Shown: positions 2,874 to 22,588 of the stretch, piece after piece | Layout of the letters: every line of letters starts with the position of its first letter | Position numbering within the stretch: position 1 is the stretch's first letter | Assembly (NCBI GenBank): GCA_012517065.1 | Contig: JAAYVR010000209.1 | Location: 1 to 33,100 of the forward strand | Source: Verrucomicrobiota bacterium | GTDB lineage: Bacteria; Verrucomicrobiota; Verrucomicrobiia; Limisphaerales; J093 | Direction of reading: 5' to 3' | Length of the DNA stretch: 33,100 nt | Program-made: the position numbers and the translations under genes | The notes under the pieces: generated by a model | What the model was told of the DNA's origin: nothing | The model's input: the letters and a program-made list of their open reading frames with translations, nothing else | The model's database searches: none

Positions 2874-2996
2874 GGCGTTGATTTTCGGATTGCCGCTTCT
2901 TGTGTGAGATACAACAATTGTGTCACTCATTGTGCGGGCGGTCTGCAGCGGCCAACGTGCCCGTGGACCCACGCCTGACCGAATCATGTGATCGCC

Positions 2997-4358
2997 ATGA
3001 ACTCAAATGAATTGAACCGGCGCCAGTTTCTGACAACAGCCGCAATCGCCGCCACCACAGCAGCCGTTCCAACGACCGTGTTGCCGGCGCATTCTGCAGG
3101 GAAGGCGAGGTGGACCGGCAAACTCGCGCTACTGGGAGGGGAACCGATCCGAAAGGGCAAATCGTGGCCGTCATGGCCGTATTGGGACGACAAGGTGCTT
3201 GAGGCCGTGATCAAGACAACCAAGAGCGGGATATGGTGCCGCATCCAGTCTGCCTCGGGAACAGTCCCAACGTTCGAAAAGGAATTTGCCGCTCTGATAG
3301 GGGCCAAGTACTGCGTCGCAACCGGGTCTGGCACGCAAGCGCTGCATACTTGTGTTGAAGCGCTTGGCATCGGCGCTGGCGACGAAGTCATAACTTCGCC
3401 ATATACTGATCCTGGAACCATAGCTTCGATACTGTCAGCGCGTGCGCTGCCGGTGCTGGCCGACCTTGATCCGGAGTCATACCAGTTGGACCCGGCTGAC
3501 GTCGAACGCCGTATTACTGAAAACACCAGGGCAATAATGCCTGTGCACATGATGGGCCAGCCGGTGAACATGGATGCAATCATGGCCATCGCACGGAAAC
3601 ACAACCTGTTCGTGATTGAAGATGCCGCTCAGGCGCATCTTGCTGAGTACAATGGCAAGAAGCTTGGCACAATCGGCACCCTTGGCTGTTTCAGCTTCCA
3701 GAGCAGCAAGACCATCGCCTGCGGTGAAGGTGGCGCGATTGTTGGGGACGACGAAGCTTTGATGGACCGTTGTTACACGGTTCACAACCACGGGACAAAC
3801 CGGCGTGGCCGGACAGAGGTCATCGGCCCAAAATACAGAATGAACGAATTCGAAGCGGCTGTGTTACTTGGCCAAATGTCCGGTGTTCTCGAGCGGTTCC
3901 AGCGGCGCAACGAAAACGCCGCTCACCTCACATCGCGGTTGAAGGGATGCCCGGGCATTGTGCCGCAAAAGCTTTATCCGGGAACAGCCAGTGGGTCGTT
4001 CTATCTTTACGCGATGTCCTATCGAAAAGAACATTTTGGCGGTGTTGACCGAAGCCGGTTCCTCAAGGCGGTGGAGGCTGAAGGCGTCAGTCTGAGTCCG
4101 TACATCGAACGCGGATTGCACCGCGAACCGTGGGTGGATTTCGTGGTCGAGAGCAAGGTTTACCAGAAGATGTTTGGCGAAAAACGGCTCAAACAATACC
4201 GCGAAGAAATGCAATGCCCGAATTGCGACCGGGTCTGCCAGGAAATGGTGATGATTTGGGCCTCGGGACCGCTCCTCGGCACGAAGGAGGACATGGACGA
4301 CATCGCCGACGCGATACTCAAGGTGTACGAGAACCGCGACCAACTCCGCGCGGCATAA
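2997..4358 (+). CDS. DegT/DnrJ/EryC1-family PLP aminotransferase with Tat signal
   Basis: Family members transfer an amino group to keto-sugars, usually from glutamate, in the cytoplasm. From the ATG at 2997 the protein has 453 residues; a GTG three codons earlier (2988) also fits. Visible hallmarks are a GSGTQAL PLP-binding stretch, ED-AAQAH with the PLP-contacting Asp, and SFQSSKT with the Schiff-base Lys at about residue 238. The N-terminus is unusual: NRRQFLTTAAIAATTAA is a twin-arginine signal followed by a hydrophobic stretch and an AHSAG cleavage-like site, so the enzyme should be exported with PLP already bound. About 35 extra residues precede the normal family start. The 3' end overlaps the convergent amidohydrolase-like gene by 41 bp. 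A role in sugar breakdown or modification with the facing operon is inference; the substrate is unknown. Confidence 0.88.
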   Translation: MNSNELNRRQFLTTAAIAATTAAVPTTVLPAHSAGKARWTGKLALLGGEPIRKGKSWPSWPYWDDKVLEAVIKTTKSGIWCRIQSASGTVPTFEKEFAALIGAKYCVATGSGTQALHTCVEALGIGAGDEVITSPYTDPGTIASILSARALPVLADLDPESYQLDPADVERRITENTRAIMPVHMMGQPVNMDAIMAIARKHNLFVIEDAAQAHLAEYNGKKLGTIGTLGCFSFQSSKTIACGEGGAIVGDDEALMDRCYTVHNHGTNRRGRTEVIGPKYRMNEFEAAVLLGQMSGVLERFQRRNENAAHLTSRLKGCPGIVPQKLYPGTASGSFYLYAMSYRKEHFGGVDRSRFLKAVEAEGVSLSPYIERGLHREPWVDFVVESKVYQKMFGEKRLKQYREEMQCPNCDRVCQEMVMIWASGPLLGTKEDMDDIADAILKVYENRDQLRAA

Positions 4359-5337
4359 GCCGAATTGCATTGCCAGCGCACAATGCCGCAAGCTGGGTCG
4401 GCGAGAGGGAAGACTCTCGGAGCTTGAGTGCCGCCGACTCGAAGTAGAACAACGGCGCATTCGATCCGAACAGCACGCGTTCCACTGGTATTTCCGTGAC
4501 GAGCCGCTCCACGCAGCCGACGCCGTCGAGCGTGGAGATTTCCACATAAACCTCTCCCGATCGGATCAACTGCCCGAGTGGTTCGCCTCTGACAAGGCGC
4601 AATGCGTTGATCAACACCAGCCGGATGCCTTGAATCTCTCGCACCAACCGAACCAATGGCGTTGGGTCAACAGGCGCCACGCGCATCAACGGGTGCATCA
4701 TCCGTTCGTCTTCCATTGCAAGCGCGATTTGGACAATCAACCCGCGCTCGGCAGCCGCGCGCAGCAGACTTGCAGACGCCGGATCGTCGAGCTTGTACCC
4801 GTGGTAATTCGGGTACAATCGAATGCCGTGCATTCGGTGTGCTTCGGCGCAGCGGCGCAGCTCTTCTCGCCAATCTGGCAGGACAGGATTGATTGTTCCA
4901 AACGGCAGCAACAAGCCGCGTCCGTTCTGAGCGCACGCACGTGCCAGTCGCGCATTTGCAGCCGCGATGTCCTTGTGAAGCATTCCATCCAAGCTGCCAA
5001 CCCATGCCTGCGAAACCCCTCTGCTTCGGAGCAACTTCGCCAGCTCTGGCGCTTCGTCAAATTCCACACGCCGCGTTGGCCAGTGCGAGATGCTGACGTT
5101 GACATCGACCAGCGCGCCCGGCCGGTGTGAGCTGTCGGCTGATGAAACCGACAGTCCGGAGCGAACACCAACGAGAACTGCGAGCCCGCTGGCGAACCTG
5201 AAAAAATCCCGGCGCGCAATGCAATGCTTCGGATCGCCCAATTTGTTCCCTGGCGCGTGTTCCCAGCGTAAGGCCCGTGGTCTTTGGTCCTTTGTCTCCG
5301 GTCCATGGACTCTGGCCTGTTGTCTGGGCGCTTTCAT
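4318..5337 (-). CDS. Amidohydrolase-fold protein lacking metal ligands, Tat-type leader
   Basis: The 339 residues have an amidohydrolase_2 (TIM-barrel) layout parallel to the gene just upstream, but every expected metal ligand is changed. The HxH after strand 1 reads DVNVSI (N80, S82). The His of the later strands is absent (VQIALA; LINAL with N244). The strand-8 Asp is Asn in FGSNAP (N293). Catalysis by the normal metal mechanism is therefore unlikely; it may bind ligand, regulate, or use other chemistry. A twin-arginine motif ARRDFFRFASG followed by a hydrophobic run (residues 41-63) suggests export. The start at 5337 is chosen because ATGA overlaps the upstream stop by 4 bp, indicating translational coupling. 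It leaves an odd 40-residue hydrophilic extension before the RR, so a later non-ATG start is possible. The 3' end overlaps the DegT gene by 41 bp. Confidence 0.8.
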   Translation of the reverse strand: MKAPRQQARVHGPETKDQRPRALRWEHAPGNKLGDPKHCIARRDFFRFASGLAVLVGVRSGLSVSSADSSHRPGALVDVNVSISHWPTRRVEFDEAPELAKLLRSRGVSQAWVGSLDGMLHKDIAAANARLARACAQNGRGLLLPFGTINPVLPDWREELRRCAEAHRMHGIRLYPNYHGYKLDDPASASLLRAAAERGLIVQIALAMEDERMMHPLMRVAPVDPTPLVRLVREIQGIRLVLINALRLVRGEPLGQLIRSGEVYVEISTLDGVGCVERLVTEIPVERVLFGSNAPLFYFESAALKLRESSLSPTQLAALCAGNAIRLMPRGVGRGSRTP

Positions 5338-6167
5338 TGATGTTCGATTGTCGTGCTGCGATGTGTGGAGAATCCCTTCGACGTGAGGATGGGACGAAGC
5401 AGGCGTCTGAGATTGCCGACCAGAATCAAACGTTTCGCTGTCTCGGGAACGCTGGCACCGGTTACCTTTCCGAGCTGCGACGCAAAGCTCCGTCCGCCAG
5501 CGTCGCTGCCGAACAATACTCGTTCGGCGCCCAACTCGCGGACGGCCATTTCGGTTACGCCTGCGACCGGGTCGCCGCCCGAGAGTTCTACATAGACATT
5601 TTGGCAGGATCGCACGGCCCGAATGCCAACCTCCCAATCACCGCCGCTATGTCCGCAAATGAATTGTGCGTCCGGGTGCCGCCTGGCCAACTCTGCCAAA
5701 TCCATTGGCGTGGATTCGCCCGGTAGATTCCCTGTGATCTTGAGCCACGTGTGCTGATAGATGGGGGCGCGCAGCTCGGCGGCTCTGCGCACAATGGGAT
5801 CCAAAGCAGGCGAATTGCACTTTTCTGCAACCCAAAGTTTCACACCGACCATTGGCCCGTCGGCCACGCATCTGTTGAGCTCGTCGATGCTTGCTTGCGT
5901 GTGTTTCGGGTTCAGATACACAAACCCGAATGCGCGTTCGGGAAAACGGCGTATTGCTCGCAAAACATCGTCGTTGTCTTTTCTCAGCTTTTCCGGCGAA
6001 GGGTCGTACGCCCATTCCATACCCATGCAAATGCAGAGCTTTTGAATGCCGAGCCGGTCGGCGTAACCGATGAGCCGTTCCAGCCTTTCCTCCGGAGTGT
6101 TGCCTGGAACTCCGGACAAATGACAATGCACATCCCAGATTTCCATCCGATCAGGTGCTGCACTCAT
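5334..6167 (-). CDS. Amidohydrolase 2 family metal-dependent hydrolase
   Basis: This 277-residue protein shows the complete ligand set of the amidohydrolase_2 family (PF04909): DVHCH (H14, H16), YQHTW (H139), CGHSGG (H173) and FGSDAG (D222). Family members include decarboxylases such as ACMSD and lactonases or hydrolases acting on cyclic or aromatic acids and sugar lactones; the substrate here is not evident. No signal peptide is seen, so it should act in the cytoplasm, unlike its neighbours. A second ATG (6146, MEIWDVHC) is an alternative start. It lies third in a minus-strand operon, 39 bp after the nitrilase-like gene, and its stop overlaps the start of the ligand-less paralogue (ATGA). 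Confidence 0.88.
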   Translation of the reverse strand: MSAAPDRMEIWDVHCHLSGVPGNTPEERLERLIGYADRLGIQKLCICMGMEWAYDPSPEKLRKDNDDVLRAIRRFPERAFGFVYLNPKHTQASIDELNRCVADGPMVGVKLWVAEKCNSPALDPIVRRAAELRAPIYQHTWLKITGNLPGESTPMDLAELARRHPDAQFICGHSGGDWEVGIRAVRSCQNVYVELSGGDPVAGVTEMAVRELGAERVLFGSDAGGRSFASQLGKVTGASVPETAKRLILVGNLRRLLRPILTSKGFSTHRSTTIEHQ

Positions 6168-6206: not shown

Positions 6207-7538
6207 TCAGTCGTATCGCCACACAGGCCTGTGACGCGGAATCTCCGCTTTGAAATCTCCGAGGCTTGACCAATGCAAACGCCGGTTCAAATCAACCTCT
6301 GCCACGGCGATTGTTCCCCACTCTTTCGCCTGGGCGATCACTTTTCCTTCATGGTCGAAGACTGCGGAGATCATCCAGTTGGCGGCTGCATCGGTGTAAG
6401 TGCTGCTAACCAGAAACACGTGGTTTTCGCAGGCGCGCGCCGCCGCTAATAACGGGTTGCAGCCCCAAACCGGGAACGCGATCACTTCCGCGCCGCGAAT
6501 CGAGAGCTGTCGCGCCACTTCGGGAAAAAACCCGTCGTAGCAAATCATCATGCCCACCTTGCCAAACCGCGTGTCGAACACGGGATAATCTTCGCCTGCG
6601 ACAACGCCGCCTTCGATTTCAGTGCGCGGCAAAGAAACCTTTCGGTACTTGCCAATTATTGCTCCGCCGGGGCCAATCAGAACTGCGGTGTTATAGACCA
6701 GATGACTGTCGCGCTCGACCAACCCCACGACCAGGTGCAGGTTATGCTCGCGTGCCAGACCTCCAAAGTATTCCGTGGACGGCCCGGGAATCGGTTCGGC
6801 TGCTTCGGCGTAAGAAAGCCCCGTTCCGCACACGGTGATTGTCTCGGGCAAAACAACAAGGTCAGCCTTTTGCCGGGCCGCCTCGGCTATCAACGGAGCA
6901 AAAAGCTTGCAGTTCGCTTCTGCTGTTTTCTGGCCGGACGGGCGAAAATGCACCGTTGCAAGGCGGACCTTGCGTGGTGGCGGTGCCGGCACTTCTTCAA
7001 GAGAAACCGCCGACCATTCAACTCGAGCTTGAGCAGCCCACAACAGGTGGAGTTCGACGATGGCCTTGGTGGCCTTTGACGGTACCTGGTACACGTCCGA
7101 CACCTCGGTCCAGCCCGAAACGTCGGTTCCCCGATCGGACGGATATTCCGGCTCGGCGATTGGCAACGTGCCCTCGCGGTAGCTTGTTGCTCCCGGTTCG
7201 TCATGGAACACGGAGCGGCCATGGTCATCACGCCACATGACACGCGCGAACACAGACATGCGCGGGACCGGCACGTTTGATGTTTTCCGCCACGCGGTGA
7301 ATCTGTAAAACGCACCGCCTTTGACCGGGAAAGCTCTTGACCAGTACCCTGCCAGTCCGTGGCGAGCATCAGTCGCAATTACAAGTATCGCGCCTCCGTC
7401 ACGCCCGCCGGTTGTTTCGGTTGCGAAAGCTGGGCGAACTTCGTCGCGCGGCGCACACGCGCGCCATCCGTCCATCGTTGTTTCCGCCGCAAACCCGATG
7501 CTCGATGCGGCCATCATCAAGATGAAATGCGTTTTCAT
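6207..7538 (-). CDS. Exported carbon-nitrogen hydrolase (nitrilase fold) with N-terminal beta-domain
   Basis: From the ATG at 7538 the protein has 443 residues. This start has a GGAG Shine-Dalgarno (7549-7546) 7 nt upstream and begins [18 protein letters not shown], a Sec-type signal peptide. Starts further upstream would overlap the preceding gene. Residues about 20-185 look like a carbohydrate-binding/jelly-roll domain ([31 protein letters not shown]). Residues about 190-440 are a nitrilase domain with the full catalytic triad: Glu232 in LPETI, Lys300 in GKYRK and Cys333 in MICYDG. The fold cleaves amides, ureas or nitriles, so an exported amidase acting on an N-acyl or carbamoyl group of a carbohydrate is a reasonable inference. 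It lies 29 bp after the oxidoreductase gene and 39 bp before the amidohydrolase. Confidence 0.88.
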
Positions 7539-7567
7539 CGTTGCTCTCCATACGACCGGGCAGATTG

Positions 7568-8896
7568 TCAAACCTGGTCTGGCATCACCCACGGCGCCCG
7601 ATATGCAGTGCGTTTCAGGAAACGATTTGCCTCTGGTGTTTTTGGGAACGACTCGGTTGCCCCATCAAAAATCAACTTCGCATTTTCCATGCGCCATGAA
7701 ATGTTCGCCAAATGACACAGCAAAGTTGAATGATGGCCCTGCTCGACGTCTGCGTTGGGCAGTTTGCCGCTTCTGATACACTGGAGGAAGTTGTCCAAGT
7801 GCGGGCGGTCGCCGGGCCTGCCCGGGGATTCAGCGATGACCTTGTTGTTTTCGTCATAGACCTGCCAACCGCCGCCGTGTCTTCCGAGGTACATGCAATC
7901 CTTTGTGCCGAGGATTTCTATTTTGGTTGCGCAGAACGGCCAGTCGGGGAATTGGTCGCCTTCGCGAATTGAGATTGGGATTTTCTTCATGTACGGTGTC
8001 CAGAGTGCCCCCTGAAACATCAGGGTGAAACTGTCATACTCGAACATGGCAAACTGTGTGTCTGGAGTATCACGTCCATCGCGCAGGACTAGAATGCCTC
8101 CGCAATGGCTGACACTGCGGGGCGCAGGCGGATCGCCCATGACAAACCGCGCAAGATCAAGTTGATGCACTGCGTCGCCGGGGATCGGACCGCAGCTAAA
8201 CTCGGCCATGTTCAGCCAGTATCGTCCAGGAACGTACGGCAACCGCGCCGCCGGCCCGCACCACATGTCATAATCGAATCCCTGTGGCACTGGTTCTTCC
8301 GGTCCCATCCGCTGGGGCGAGTGTTGCATTAGATTGTACACCCGAACGAGCCGCACCTCGCCCAGTTTGCCGGACCTGACCAAATCGCGTGCAGGTTGAA
8401 CATAGGGCGCACTGCGTGTTTGCGTTCCGACGGTGACAACCCGATTGTACTTGCGAGCTGCTTCGATCATTTTGCGGCCTTCCCACACGTTGTGCGCCAT
8501 TGGTTTTTCAACATACACGTGTTTGCCGGCCTGACACGCCAATACCGTGCCCAGTCCATGCCAATGATCAGGCGTTGCGTTGACCACGGCATCGACTTCA
8601 CGGTCCTCCAGCATCCGCCGAAAATCCTGAATGCACTCGGCCTTGTGCCCATGCGCTTCGACAACTCGCCGGGCTTGTGCATGCCGCCGTTGGTCGGGAT
8701 CGCACAAGTACTTGATCCGAACGTCGGGCCGTTCGGCAAACATTCCGGCAAGCCCTGTGCCACGTCCGCCCAGTCCCATGACGCCGATTACGATCTGATC
8801 ATTTGCTGATGCGGACACTGGACGTTGCGAGAGCGAAAGTGCAGTTGCGGCACCGAGAGAACCTTTGAGGAATTGGCGGCGATTCAATCTTTGCAT
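7568..8896 (-). CDS. Gfo/Idh/MocA-family oxidoreductase with Tat signal
   Basis: This 442-residue protein has an N-terminal twin-arginine signal ([18 protein letters not shown], residues 5-22). A Rossmann domain follows with [11 protein letters not shown] (38-48) and the EKP motif (130-132). The C-terminal domain carries the substrate-binding signature D241...H244..D247 in PGDAVHQLD. Such enzymes oxidise or epimerise sugars and inositols with NAD(P), often tightly bound. Tat-tagged members are common in Planctomycetes and Verrucomicrobia. It is the first gene of the four-gene minus-strand operon. A GGAAAGG stretch a few bases upstream serves as ribosome-binding site. The neighbouring aminotransferase, amidase and amidohydrolases suggest attack on an amino- or acyl-amino sugar, but no substrate can be read from the sequence. 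Confidence 0.92.
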
Positions 8897-19926: not shown

Positions 19927-20637
19927 ATGAAGCGAATCGCGGTTGTGACCGGCGCGGGAAGCGGTGTGGGCCAGGCAGTGGCTCTGGCGCTAGCAGCAGA
20001 GAATTGGGACGTTGCATTGGTGGGCCGGAGATTGGAGACGCTCCATGCGACGTGCCAATGGGCCGGGGCCCATCGGAGCAATTGCCATTGTTACCTCTGC
20101 GACGTCAGGGACGTTGAAGCGGTGAACCGAACCACAGCCCGGATCATCGAGGAGCTGGGCAGTGTCGAAGTCCTTGTAAACGCCGCAGGCACAAACGTGC
20201 CCAAACGCGCGCTGGAGGTGCTTTCAATCGAGGATTACCGCGCAACGATCGAGACAAACCTCAACGGCGCGTATTACTGGATTCAAGCTCTCCTTCCCCA
20301 CATGCGCGCCCGGGGTTCCGGAACTATCGTAAATATCGTCTCCGATGCCGGCAAACAAGCCAGCCCAAAAGCCGGCGCAGCCTATGTAATGTCCAAGTTC
20401 GGCCTCGCAGGGCTGACGCAAAGCGTCAATGCCGAGGAACGTGCACGGGGTATCCGGGCCTGCGCGATTTTTCCGGGCGATATTGACACACCGTTGCTTG
20501 ATAAGCGCCCGCAACCACCTGACAGCGTTGCCAGAGCAAAAATGTTGCGCCCGGAAGACGTGGCCGCGTGCGTCCTTCTGTGTGTGAACCTACCGGCTCG
20601 CGCAATCGTCGAAGAACTGGTTGTGCGCCCGCGCTAA
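19927..20637 (+). CDS. Short-chain dehydrogenase/reductase (SDR)
   Basis: From the ATG at 19927 the protein has 236 residues, normal for a classical SDR. It shows TGAGSGVG (8-15, cofactor loop), CDVRD with Asp59, NAAG (85-88), the catalytic Asn111, Ser139 and the YVMSK pair (Tyr153, Lys157), and PGDIDTP after them. Arg at 34-35 (GRR) suggests NADP preference. The substrate cannot be told. It is a single gene on the + strand whose stop overlaps the stop of the convergent sulfatase-modifying-factor-domain gene by 4 bp. No strong Shine-Dalgarno is seen. Confidence 0.92.
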   Translation: MKRIAVVTGAGSGVGQAVALALAAENWDVALVGRRLETLHATCQWAGAHRSNCHCYLCDVRDVEAVNRTTARIIEELGSVEVLVNAAGTNVPKRALEVLSIEDYRATIETNLNGAYYWIQALLPHMRARGSGTIVNIVSDAGKQASPKAGAAYVMSKFGLAGLTQSVNAEERARGIRACAIFPGDIDTPLLDKRPQPPDSVARAKMLRPEDVAACVLLCVNLPARAIVEELVVRPR

Positions 20638-22481
20638 CGCGCCGGCGTGGGGCAGGTCGGGGCAAGAACGACCCTGAATCCGAAGCTGCCGTACTGGGTG
20701 ACGGGCCTGTCAAGAAACCAGTTGTGCCTGTCTGCCGCCCGGCAACCTTGAGCATCGATGTGCCACGCGCCGCCACGAATGCATTGAAACGGCAGATCGT
20801 TCGTGGCTTCCCCAACCGTGACAGTGAGGTGCCCGCCGGGGTAGAGCACGAACGGGTTCAAACACCATTCCCAAACGTTGCCGTGCATGTCGAACAGACC
20901 CCACGGATTTGGCTTTCGCGTCCCGACCGGATGCGTCTGCCAGCCGCTGTTGTGCGATGTCCATGCGTATTCGCACAGAGTATCCACGTAATCATCCCAT
21001 GGCGTACATCGGTCGAATCCGAAACTGAAAAGTGTCGTTGTCCCGGCCCGACACGCATATTCCCACTCGAATTCAGTCGGCAATCGATAGACATGCCCAT
21101 GCGGAAGCCGCCCCATTCGCCGTTCGCGATCGGTTAGCTTTTCGCAGTAAGCGAATGCTTCGGCCCATGTGACATTTTCCACGGGCCGGTTTGGATCGCC
21201 TGAGAACATCGAAGGATTTGTCTCCATCACCGACTCGTATTCGCTCTGTGTGGTTTCGTACTTGCTCATCCAAAATCCGTACGTGAATCTGACCAGTGTC
21301 ATTGGCTGCTCGTCCGGGTCGCGATGGTCTTCGCAGGGCGGGCTGCCGACCACAAATGTGCCGGGCGATATCCAAACAAGCCTCGGGTTTGCCACAGGAC
21401 CCAGTACCAATCGGAAACCCGTGGCACTGTCCCGGGCAGATTGGTCAACAGCGCGCCGACGTGCCGACCTGCAGTCGCGCACCAGATCGCTGTTCCATGC
21501 GCCGCCGCGGCAAATCCGGCGTGTCCCGGGTGCGGTTCCCTGCCAGTCTTCAACTGCGCCGCCCGGGTAGGTGCTTTCGGAATCGAGACACCATTCCCAA
21601 ACATTGCCGTGCATGTCGTACAGGCCGCCGCTTTCGTGGGCGTCGTACAATGTCCAGTTGTTTGGTTCTTTTGTTCCTGTTTGCTGCGGCCCTTCACCGG
21701 TGGCATGTGGCTCTGTCCAGAGCTCCGCCATGGCGTTCAGATTGTACCATGCGTAGCGTTTGGCCACCGCTTCGTCTTCACTGTCGCCCCAACCGAATCT
21801 TGTGGTTGTTCCGGCACGACATGCGTATTCCCATTCTGCTTCAGTGGGCAATCGATAAACGTAACCCGGCGGCAATCTGCCGGCCGCCCGCTCACGCTCG
21901 GTGAGCTTCTCGCAGAACCGCACCGCTTCATCCCATGTGACATTCTCGACGGGCAGCTTTGCATTGCCGATGAAGATCGACGGGTTGTACCCCATGACAG
22001 TCTCGAACTCCCGTTGAGTGACCTCGCGCCTGCCGATAAGAAAACCGCGCGTGATTGTCACCTCGGTCACAGGCCCTTCGTTCTCGTACCGACCCTCTTC
22101 GGTTTCCGGGCTGCCGATTGCGAACTTGCCCTGCGGAATGTACGTGAAGTCGAGCTGGCCGGGCACAGGAAGGCCAAGTGCAACAGCGCGGTAAAACCGT
22201 CTGGAGTTTCTGACCGGTTCAGGGTCGTGGAACACGTAGTTGTCAGATGGCAACTCTATCTCTGCGAGCGTTTGCCACTGTTCGCCTGAAGCGGGATCAC
22301 TGCAATACTCTATCCTGTACCGCTCGCCTGCGCGGCCGTCGATCCGGATGCCCGGATACAGCTCCACCCCCAATAAGGGCCGGTTCCCCTGTTCCTGTGC
22401 CAAAACCGAGAAGGACAGAAGACTCGCGGCAAATCCAGCAAGACACAGCTCCCCGAACAGAAACGCTGAATGCACTTTCAT
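20634..22481 (-). CDS. Exported protein with two FGE-sulfatase (SUMF1) domains
   Basis: From MKVHSAFLFG (22481) the protein has 615 residues with a Sec-type signal peptide (cleavage near VLAQ). A small module (about 35-105, YRIEYCSD...W..L..I.LP...FYRAV) is of a kind often seen in verrucomicrobial exoproteins. Two FGE-sulfatase domains follow (about 110-355 and 360-610), each with the order GSPE/GSPP, VENVTW.EA..(F/Y)CEKLT, YRLPTE.EWEYACRAGT, DMHGNVWEWCL and RGGAW. In true formylglycine-generating enzyme two Cys follow GGS(W/Y) at +2 and +7. Domain 1 has Ser at +2 and Cys at +8; domain 2 has Ile at +2 and Cys at +7. Neither has the copper-site pair, and no sulfatase is nearby, so it is probably a binding or structural relative. 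Confidence 0.9.
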   Translation of the reverse strand: MKVHSAFLFGELCLAGFAASLLSFSVLAQEQGNRPLLGVELYPGIRIDGRAGERYRIEYCSDPASGEQWQTLAEIELPSDNYVFHDPEPVRNSRRFYRAVALGLPVPGQLDFTYIPQGKFAIGSPETEEGRYENEGPVTEVTITRGFLIGRREVTQREFETVMGYNPSIFIGNAKLPVENVTWDEAVRFCEKLTERERAAGRLPPGYVYRLPTEAEWEYACRAGTTTRFGWGDSEDEAVAKRYAWYNLNAMAELWTEPHATGEGPQQTGTKEPNNWTLYDAHESGGLYDMHGNVWEWCLDSESTYPGGAVEDWQGTAPGTRRICRGGAWNSDLVRDCRSARRRAVDQSARDSATGFRLVLGPVANPRLVWISPGTFVVGSPPCEDHRDPDEQPMTLVRFTYGFWMSKYETTQSEYESVMETNPSMFSGDPNRPVENVTWAEAFAYCEKLTDRERRMGRLPHGHVYRLPTEFEWEYACRAGTTTLFSFGFDRCTPWDDYVDTLCEYAWTSHNSGWQTHPVGTRKPNPWGLFDMHGNVWEWCLNPFVLYPGGHLTVTVGEATNDLPFQCIRGGAWHIDAQGCRAADRHNWFLDRPVTQYGSFGFRVVLAPTCPTPAR

Positions 22482-22588
22482 ATTCGCTTGCCATTGCCGA
22501 GCCGAGACCAACACGCCAGCCTCGATTTTGCGACGTCAAAACAGCAACAACTCGGATGCCGCTGGTGCGCACCCTCGAATGCGCCAGC

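Follow-up and report, generated by a model that had tools for sequence, protein, structure and literature searches.

Two neighbouring minus-strand genes near one end of a 33,100-nucleotide stretch of a Verrucomicrobiota genome (GCA_012517065.1, contig JAAYVR010000209.1; the whole stretch is hereafter the window) encode proteins of the same amidohydrolase family, PF04909, and pose the question of why an enzyme with a complete set of metal ligands (gene A) is directly followed by a paralogue that has kept none of them (gene B; coordinates in Table 1). Here, we describe the conservation, pairing, natural fusion and predicted structures of the two proteins, which together suggest that A and B probably form an obligate heteromer with A as the metal enzyme and B as a pseudoenzyme subunit whose pocket has been re-modelled.

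Both proteins score well above the curated cut-off of PF04909 (Amidohydro_2; 26.4 bits), with 82.2 bits for A and 64.5 bits for B, and a profile-profile comparison aligns 241 columns of the two at 24% identity. An earlier note, made from the sequence alone, credited gene A with all metal ligands, and the residue check confirms H14, H16, H139, H173 and D222; each of the five (HxH, His, His, Asp) is kept in 78-80 of 79-81 A homologues (at least 98%). The same note read N80/S82 in place of HxH in the next gene, together with N244 and N293, and all of these residues hold, as does the fold. The five ligand positions of the window's B read N/S/A/N/N. Asn occupies position 80 in 75 of 86 B homologues, among which HxH occurs in one alone, His is absent from positions 205 and 244, and Asp is absent from position 293, which is variable (H in 45, Y in 12, G in 9). 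The note had named H180 and H205 as possible substitute ligands, but residue 180 is Gly and residue 205 is Ala; the His in that neighbourhood is H179, in the motif NYHGY. Because the pattern repeats over 86 homologues, loss of the ligands is, by this alignment, a family trait of B, not chance or a single faulty sequence. Gene B lacks the ligands of a metal-dependent amidohydrolase, though it belongs to PF04909 by score and fold. The one B-like protein with HxH (L048, 1330-2259, plus strand) has it restored or retained in the stretch FDTHVHLG and lacks most later ligands.

Gene B has instead acquired a set of near-invariant residues that are private to it: D78, W156 and H179 are each found in 85 of the 86 homologues, and D210 (83/85), R212 (84/84 where aligned), P295 (85/85) and K305 (80/85) are nearly as constant or fully so. 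The octapeptide MEDERMMH is unchanged throughout 28 close homologues, and its last residue, H215, is present in most homologues. A comparison with NCBIfam assigned no name to A or B. Databases can be expected, in our view, to give both the shared label 'amidohydrolase' from the Pfam hit, and such labelling would hide that half the records are a separate, ancient family without metal ligands.

The two genes are found together well beyond the window. A first scan with B as query (one genome per species) yielded 29 B loci of 47-94% identity in Verrucomicrobiota, Planctomycetota and Hydrogenedentota, with an A orthologue (58-92%) directly upstream on the same strand at every locus with sufficient contig; the contig scan looked for exact matches to short motifs taken from the window's B, and the phylum distribution is that of the sampled phyla only. 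A survey of 387 Verrucomicrobiota genomes gave 70 B-like hits, and for 57 of them an A-like hit lies immediately 5' in the same orientation. Three of the other 13 also adjoin A (L168, and L172 and L175 in B-A order), in genomes G199 and G234 the two genes are both present but on separate contigs, one hit lies at a contig end, one (G305:C73) is without A nearby, and the remainder score too weakly for assignment. Pairing also holds at nearly all of the 30 loci inspected in Planctomycetota, two of which (L144, L148) have B-A order. No description of the A-B pair was found in the open-licence literature. A and B are the sole members of their two families in the window's genome, where two other, remote PF04909 matches occur (G000:C248:13782-14546 and G000:C186:1116-1757), one of them in a 946-codon open frame. 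High-scoring A paralogues with no B neighbour stand at G345:C31 (L165) and G357:C44 (L166), in genomes that also hold a full A-B pair.

In some genomes the pair is a single protein. Twenty fusions in one open reading frame, about 500-690 residues long and including L111 of genome G278, join an A half to a B half in frame. HxH is absent from the first 60 residues of all 20 C-terminal halves, most of which carry B-type motifs (Y/F-(x)-H-x-W/Y and x-D-x-R-F stretches), with GSE-x-P in 19 of 20. A FastTree phylogeny of 205 sequences splits A and the fusion N-terminal halves from B and the fusion C-terminal halves with zero exceptions (support 0.998), and B forms a single clade on a long stem; the sequences were gathered by profile score, a mild circularity, and the tree inference itself used no such labels. 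Nineteen fusions form one clade and L111 lies apart, so that, on this tree, fusion of A and B arose at least twice independently.

Gene B is under purifying selection by its ratio of nonsynonymous to synonymous substitution rates (dN/dS), which is 0.08-0.17 for B and 0.05-0.17 for A. No frame-disrupting changes were seen in B; an apparent frameshift in the sister genome L031 proved to be a scaffold gap, a run of N.

Structure prediction of the B core, a check proposed in the earlier note, was run with AlphaFold2 and gave a triosephosphate isomerase (TIM) barrel with a predicted local distance difference test score (pLDDT) of 92.9 and a predicted template-modelling score (pTM) of 0.91. In this model, N80, H179, D210/R212, N244 and N293 lie on or after the C-terminal ends of strands 1, 4, 5, 6 and 8, a location that places them on the predicted catalytic face; most of the near-invariant residues of B likewise come after such strand ends. 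The natural fusion L111 (527 residues, 48-row alignment) was modelled as two barrels with a mean pLDDT of 90.9 and a pTM of 0.91. Since such a pTM for two domains of equal size implies confident relative placement, the barrels of L111 are confidently predicted to be fixed relative to each other, with a defined interface between them. Within the isolated B core, confidence is lowest at the MEDERMMH loop (block 131-140, pLDDT 69), whereas the same loop reaches 87-88 in the fusion model; this contrast fits an ordering of the loop by the partner, though the sequences compared differ. Sequence searches of the PDB returned remote relatives only. By fold, the B model is nearest to gamma-resorcylate decarboxylase (2dvt, Z 24.4 over 245 residues), followed by ACMSD and other PF04909 enzymes, and the A half of the fusion matches the uncharacterised amidohydrolase 3cjp (Z 27.5) and 2dvt (Z 24.6).

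The earlier note proposed that tight coupling of an enzyme and a pseudoenzyme points to a partner, and of its suggestions the heteromeric one is best supported by these results. We favour it because the genes adjoin in both orders, are retained jointly when unlinked and have fused at least twice, and because the two-barrel model, purifying selection and the near-invariant residues of B agree with it. For the window's organism we infer a complex built like an ordinary PF04909 homodimer in which one chain has turned pseudoenzyme. A alone would bind metal and catalyse, probably hydrolysing or decarboxylating a small molecule without redox chemistry, and B, metal-free at its old site, would complete the dimer. 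The residues on B's former catalytic face (N80, W156, H179, D210/R212 and P295, plus K305 in the helix that comes next) may bind ligand, lend side chains to the A site across the interface, or both.

Known proteins of the amidohydrolase fold offer partial parallels for such a pair. The nearest solved folds of B are decarboxylases and hydratases (2dvt, ACMSD 4ifk, LigW2 4qs5 and LigJ 6dwv). Each of these four is made of one chain type with its own active site; unlike A-B, none of them pairs with a ligand-free chain. A looser parallel may be pseudo-dihydroorotase, which has the amidohydrolase fold, has lost its metal ligands and is an obligate structural partner of aspartate transcarbamoylase; its partner is thus an unrelated transcarbamoylase, whereas that of B is an active paralogue. 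The title of the ACMSD entry 4ifk names an essential arginine from the neighbouring subunit, and R212 of B, invariant where aligned, would be a candidate for such a role.

Several points weigh against a heteromer or limit the evidence for it. A-like proteins without an adjacent B exist (L165, L166 and possibly L163), and the A fold is thus not always dependent on B. The two-barrel model derives from the natural fusion L111, not from the window's pair. The strong correlation of the A and B distance matrices over 81 pairs (r = 0.93; shuffled maximum 0.25) speaks for a partnership, but shared species history inflates it. The leaderless A beside a B with a twin-arginine translocation (Tat) leader could mean separate compartments, and the aminotransferase genes of the DegT family near the pair encode such leaders even in genomes whose A and B lack them.

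Should the heteromer exist, A-B would be an enzyme-pseudoenzyme pair of the amidohydrolase superfamily with a wide distribution across Verrucomicrobiota and Planctomycetota, and its two-gene and one-gene versions, existing side by side, would make a good system for learning how an active enzyme benefits from a pseudoenzyme partner.

A lesser but real chance attaches to B being an enzyme itself. Its active site would then have been rebuilt from N80, W156, H179, D210/R212 and, in most homologues, H215, either as a metal-independent catalytic set or with metal held by other ligands (H179, D210, H215 and the His293 found in about half of the homologues), and A-B would be bifunctional, an enzyme with two active sites for successive intermediates, of a type undescribed in the superfamily. 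The near-invariance of H179, D210, R212 and W156 in 86 divergent homologues exceeds the apparent need of a purely structural partner, H179 comes after strand 4 and D210/R212 after strand 5 on the predicted catalytic face, and some characterised PF04909 enzymes work without a cofactor (PMC10811679). However, the same conservation would fit ligand binding or an interface, and His293 is missing from the window, at a position that varies throughout the family.

The leader of B raises a further alternative, that B mainly escorts A. The twin-arginine motif ARRDFF at B residue 41 is accompanied by a hydrophobic stretch (judged from the sequence), A has no export signal, and TatC is encoded in the window's genome. 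The earlier note's contrast between a Tat-like leader on B and none on A stands for the window and does not extend to the family: of 28 close B homologues, 18 carry an RR-motif leader (all from verrucomicrobial records except one with the label Pirellulales), no such leader is seen among 28 A homologues, and B begins at the barrel in planctomycete, hydrogenedentote and most distant verrucomicrobial loci. With the leader mostly restricted to close verrucomicrobial B proteins, the pair was probably leaderless ancestrally and the Tat leader is probably a derived, verrucomicrobial trait. The note's worry that the leader complicates a complex is a weak one, given the leaderless A and B paired in other phyla and given Tat hitchhiking, by which a leaderless partner is exported together with a leader-bearing one, as established for PaoABC (PMC4273604).

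The same leader, TatC and hitchhiking would allow B to serve chiefly for export or localisation, carrying A to the periplasm with a barrel of no further role. We consider this improbable, since B is conserved and paired without a leader in Planctomycetota, Hydrogenedentota and distant Verrucomicrobiota, fusions exist, and the conserved part of B is the barrel, not the leader. Under the heteromer reading, the folded A-B complex of the verrucomicrobial clade would probably be exported via the Tat leader of B with A as passenger, which would make the pair a testable case of Tat co-export.

The translation start of B is itself uncertain. The ATGA overlap by which the earlier note joined the two genes is present as sequence, and start/stop overlaps between A and B recur among relatives; as the start of B in the window it is less secure. 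Codons 1-39 are 56% identical to those of L031 at the amino acid level with an almost neutral dN/dS of about 0.78, and codon 40 is ATG in L031 (ATT in the window), which suggests that codons 1-39 may be non-coding, that the 4-base overlap may not be a real start in the window, and that translation may actually begin immediately ahead of the RR motif.

The closest described architecture is AibH1H2, the 2-aminoisobutyrate hydroxylase of Rhodococcus wratislaviensis (6m1w, 8ful), a heterotetramer of two PF04909 proteins, one of them non-catalytic (PMC7782822, PMC12141560). According to the published descriptions, the silent chain AibH1 has a mononuclear metal site (D24, H26, H201, E255, D328) that is seemingly needed for folding (PMC7782822, PMC10401708, PMC12141560), the catalytic chain AibH2 is dinuclear (Asp25, His27, His211, Glu265, Asp337, His340; PMC7782822), and the enzyme uses Rieske/reductase partners (PMC7782822, PMC10401708, PMC12141560). 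Both systems are adjacent PF04909 gene pairs of similar divergence (AibH1 and AibH2 are 28% identical, A and B 24%), and A-B, judged from sequence and models, is likened in architecture to this tight heteromer of one catalytic and one non-catalytic chain. They differ in that AibH1 keeps its mononuclear metal site whereas B is without any canonical ligand, that A has a mononuclear hydrolase-type set (HxH, His139, His173, Asp222) where AibH2 has a dinuclear one, and that natural fusions of A-B exist while none is described for AibH1H2 in the parts of these reports consulted. That A-B might be a dinuclear monooxygenase of this kind is very unlikely: AibH1H2 does appear among the fold matches of the B model, at a lower rank (6m1w Z 21.3, 8ful Z 21.0), but A does not have the D-x-H / H / E / D / H set of AibH2 (PMC7782822), and a Rieske match (PF00355) was not found in the window's genome, which is 95% complete. 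With both the dinuclear ligand set and the Rieske partner missing, this identity was dropped; by sequence comparison A-B resembles AibH1H2 in architecture but falls outside that system.

That B is a decaying paralogue standing beside A by chance is barely credible, for although every canonical ligand is lost, B spans three phyla in open frames with a dN/dS of 0.08-0.17, new invariant residues and a single clade on a long stem, and its selection and conservation contradict pseudogene decay.

Table 1. Position of the A-B pair, its motifs and its neighbours in the window
Feature	Position	Strand	Basis or remark
Gene A, 277-residue PF04909 amidohydrolase, full ligand set	5334..6167	minus	open reading frame, Pfam and residues
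Gene A ligand codons	H14 6126-6128; H16 6120-6122; H139 5751-5753; H173 5649-5651; D222 5502-5504	minus	
Gene B, open reading frame of up to 339 residues, PF04909 barrel without canonical metal ligand	4318..5337	minus	
Gene B codons at ligand positions	N80 5098-5100; S82 5092-5094; N244 4606-4608; N293 4459-4461	minus	A205 likewise non-ligand
ATGA, stop of A overlapping first possible ATG of B	5334..5337	minus	
Tat-like leader of B (ARRDFFRFASGLAVLVG..., residues 40-70)	5128..5220	minus	sequence
B barrel core, residues 78-328	4354..5106	minus	Pfam and AlphaFold2 model
B motif around NYHGY, after strand 4	4792..4812	minus	near-invariant H179, also Y178 and Y181
B motif MEDERMMH, residues 208-215, after strand 5	4693..4716	minus	
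Secreted carbon-nitrogen hydrolase (PF00795), 39 bp upstream of A	6207..7592	minus	conserved beside the pair in close relatives
Gfo/Idh/MocA oxidoreductase with Tat signal	7568..8896	minus	overlaps the hydrolase gene
DegT/DnrJ aminotransferase with Tat-like leader	2988..4358	plus	convergent to B

The neighbouring genes offer a lead to a pathway. The common order in close relatives is a secreted beta-propeller-like protein, the carbon-nitrogen hydrolase, A, B and DegT, and many relatives, several distant pairs included, have DegT genes close to A-B. Most close relatives carry DegT downstream in the same orientation, unlike the convergent DegT of the window, the 3' end of which overlaps that of B by 41 bp (4318-4358). 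The lysine motif of DegT is SSKTIACGEGG in the window and NSKHITCGDGG in close relatives, nearly all of which share the Tat-like leader (e.g. SRRHFI; window 2988-4358, L004, L010, L018 and L127). A periplasmic aminotransferase dependent on pyridoxal phosphate would be unusual. Farther along the window, positions 20634-22514 encode, as judged by eye, a secreted protein with two tandem repeats that resemble the formylglycine-generating (sulfatase-modifying) enzyme.

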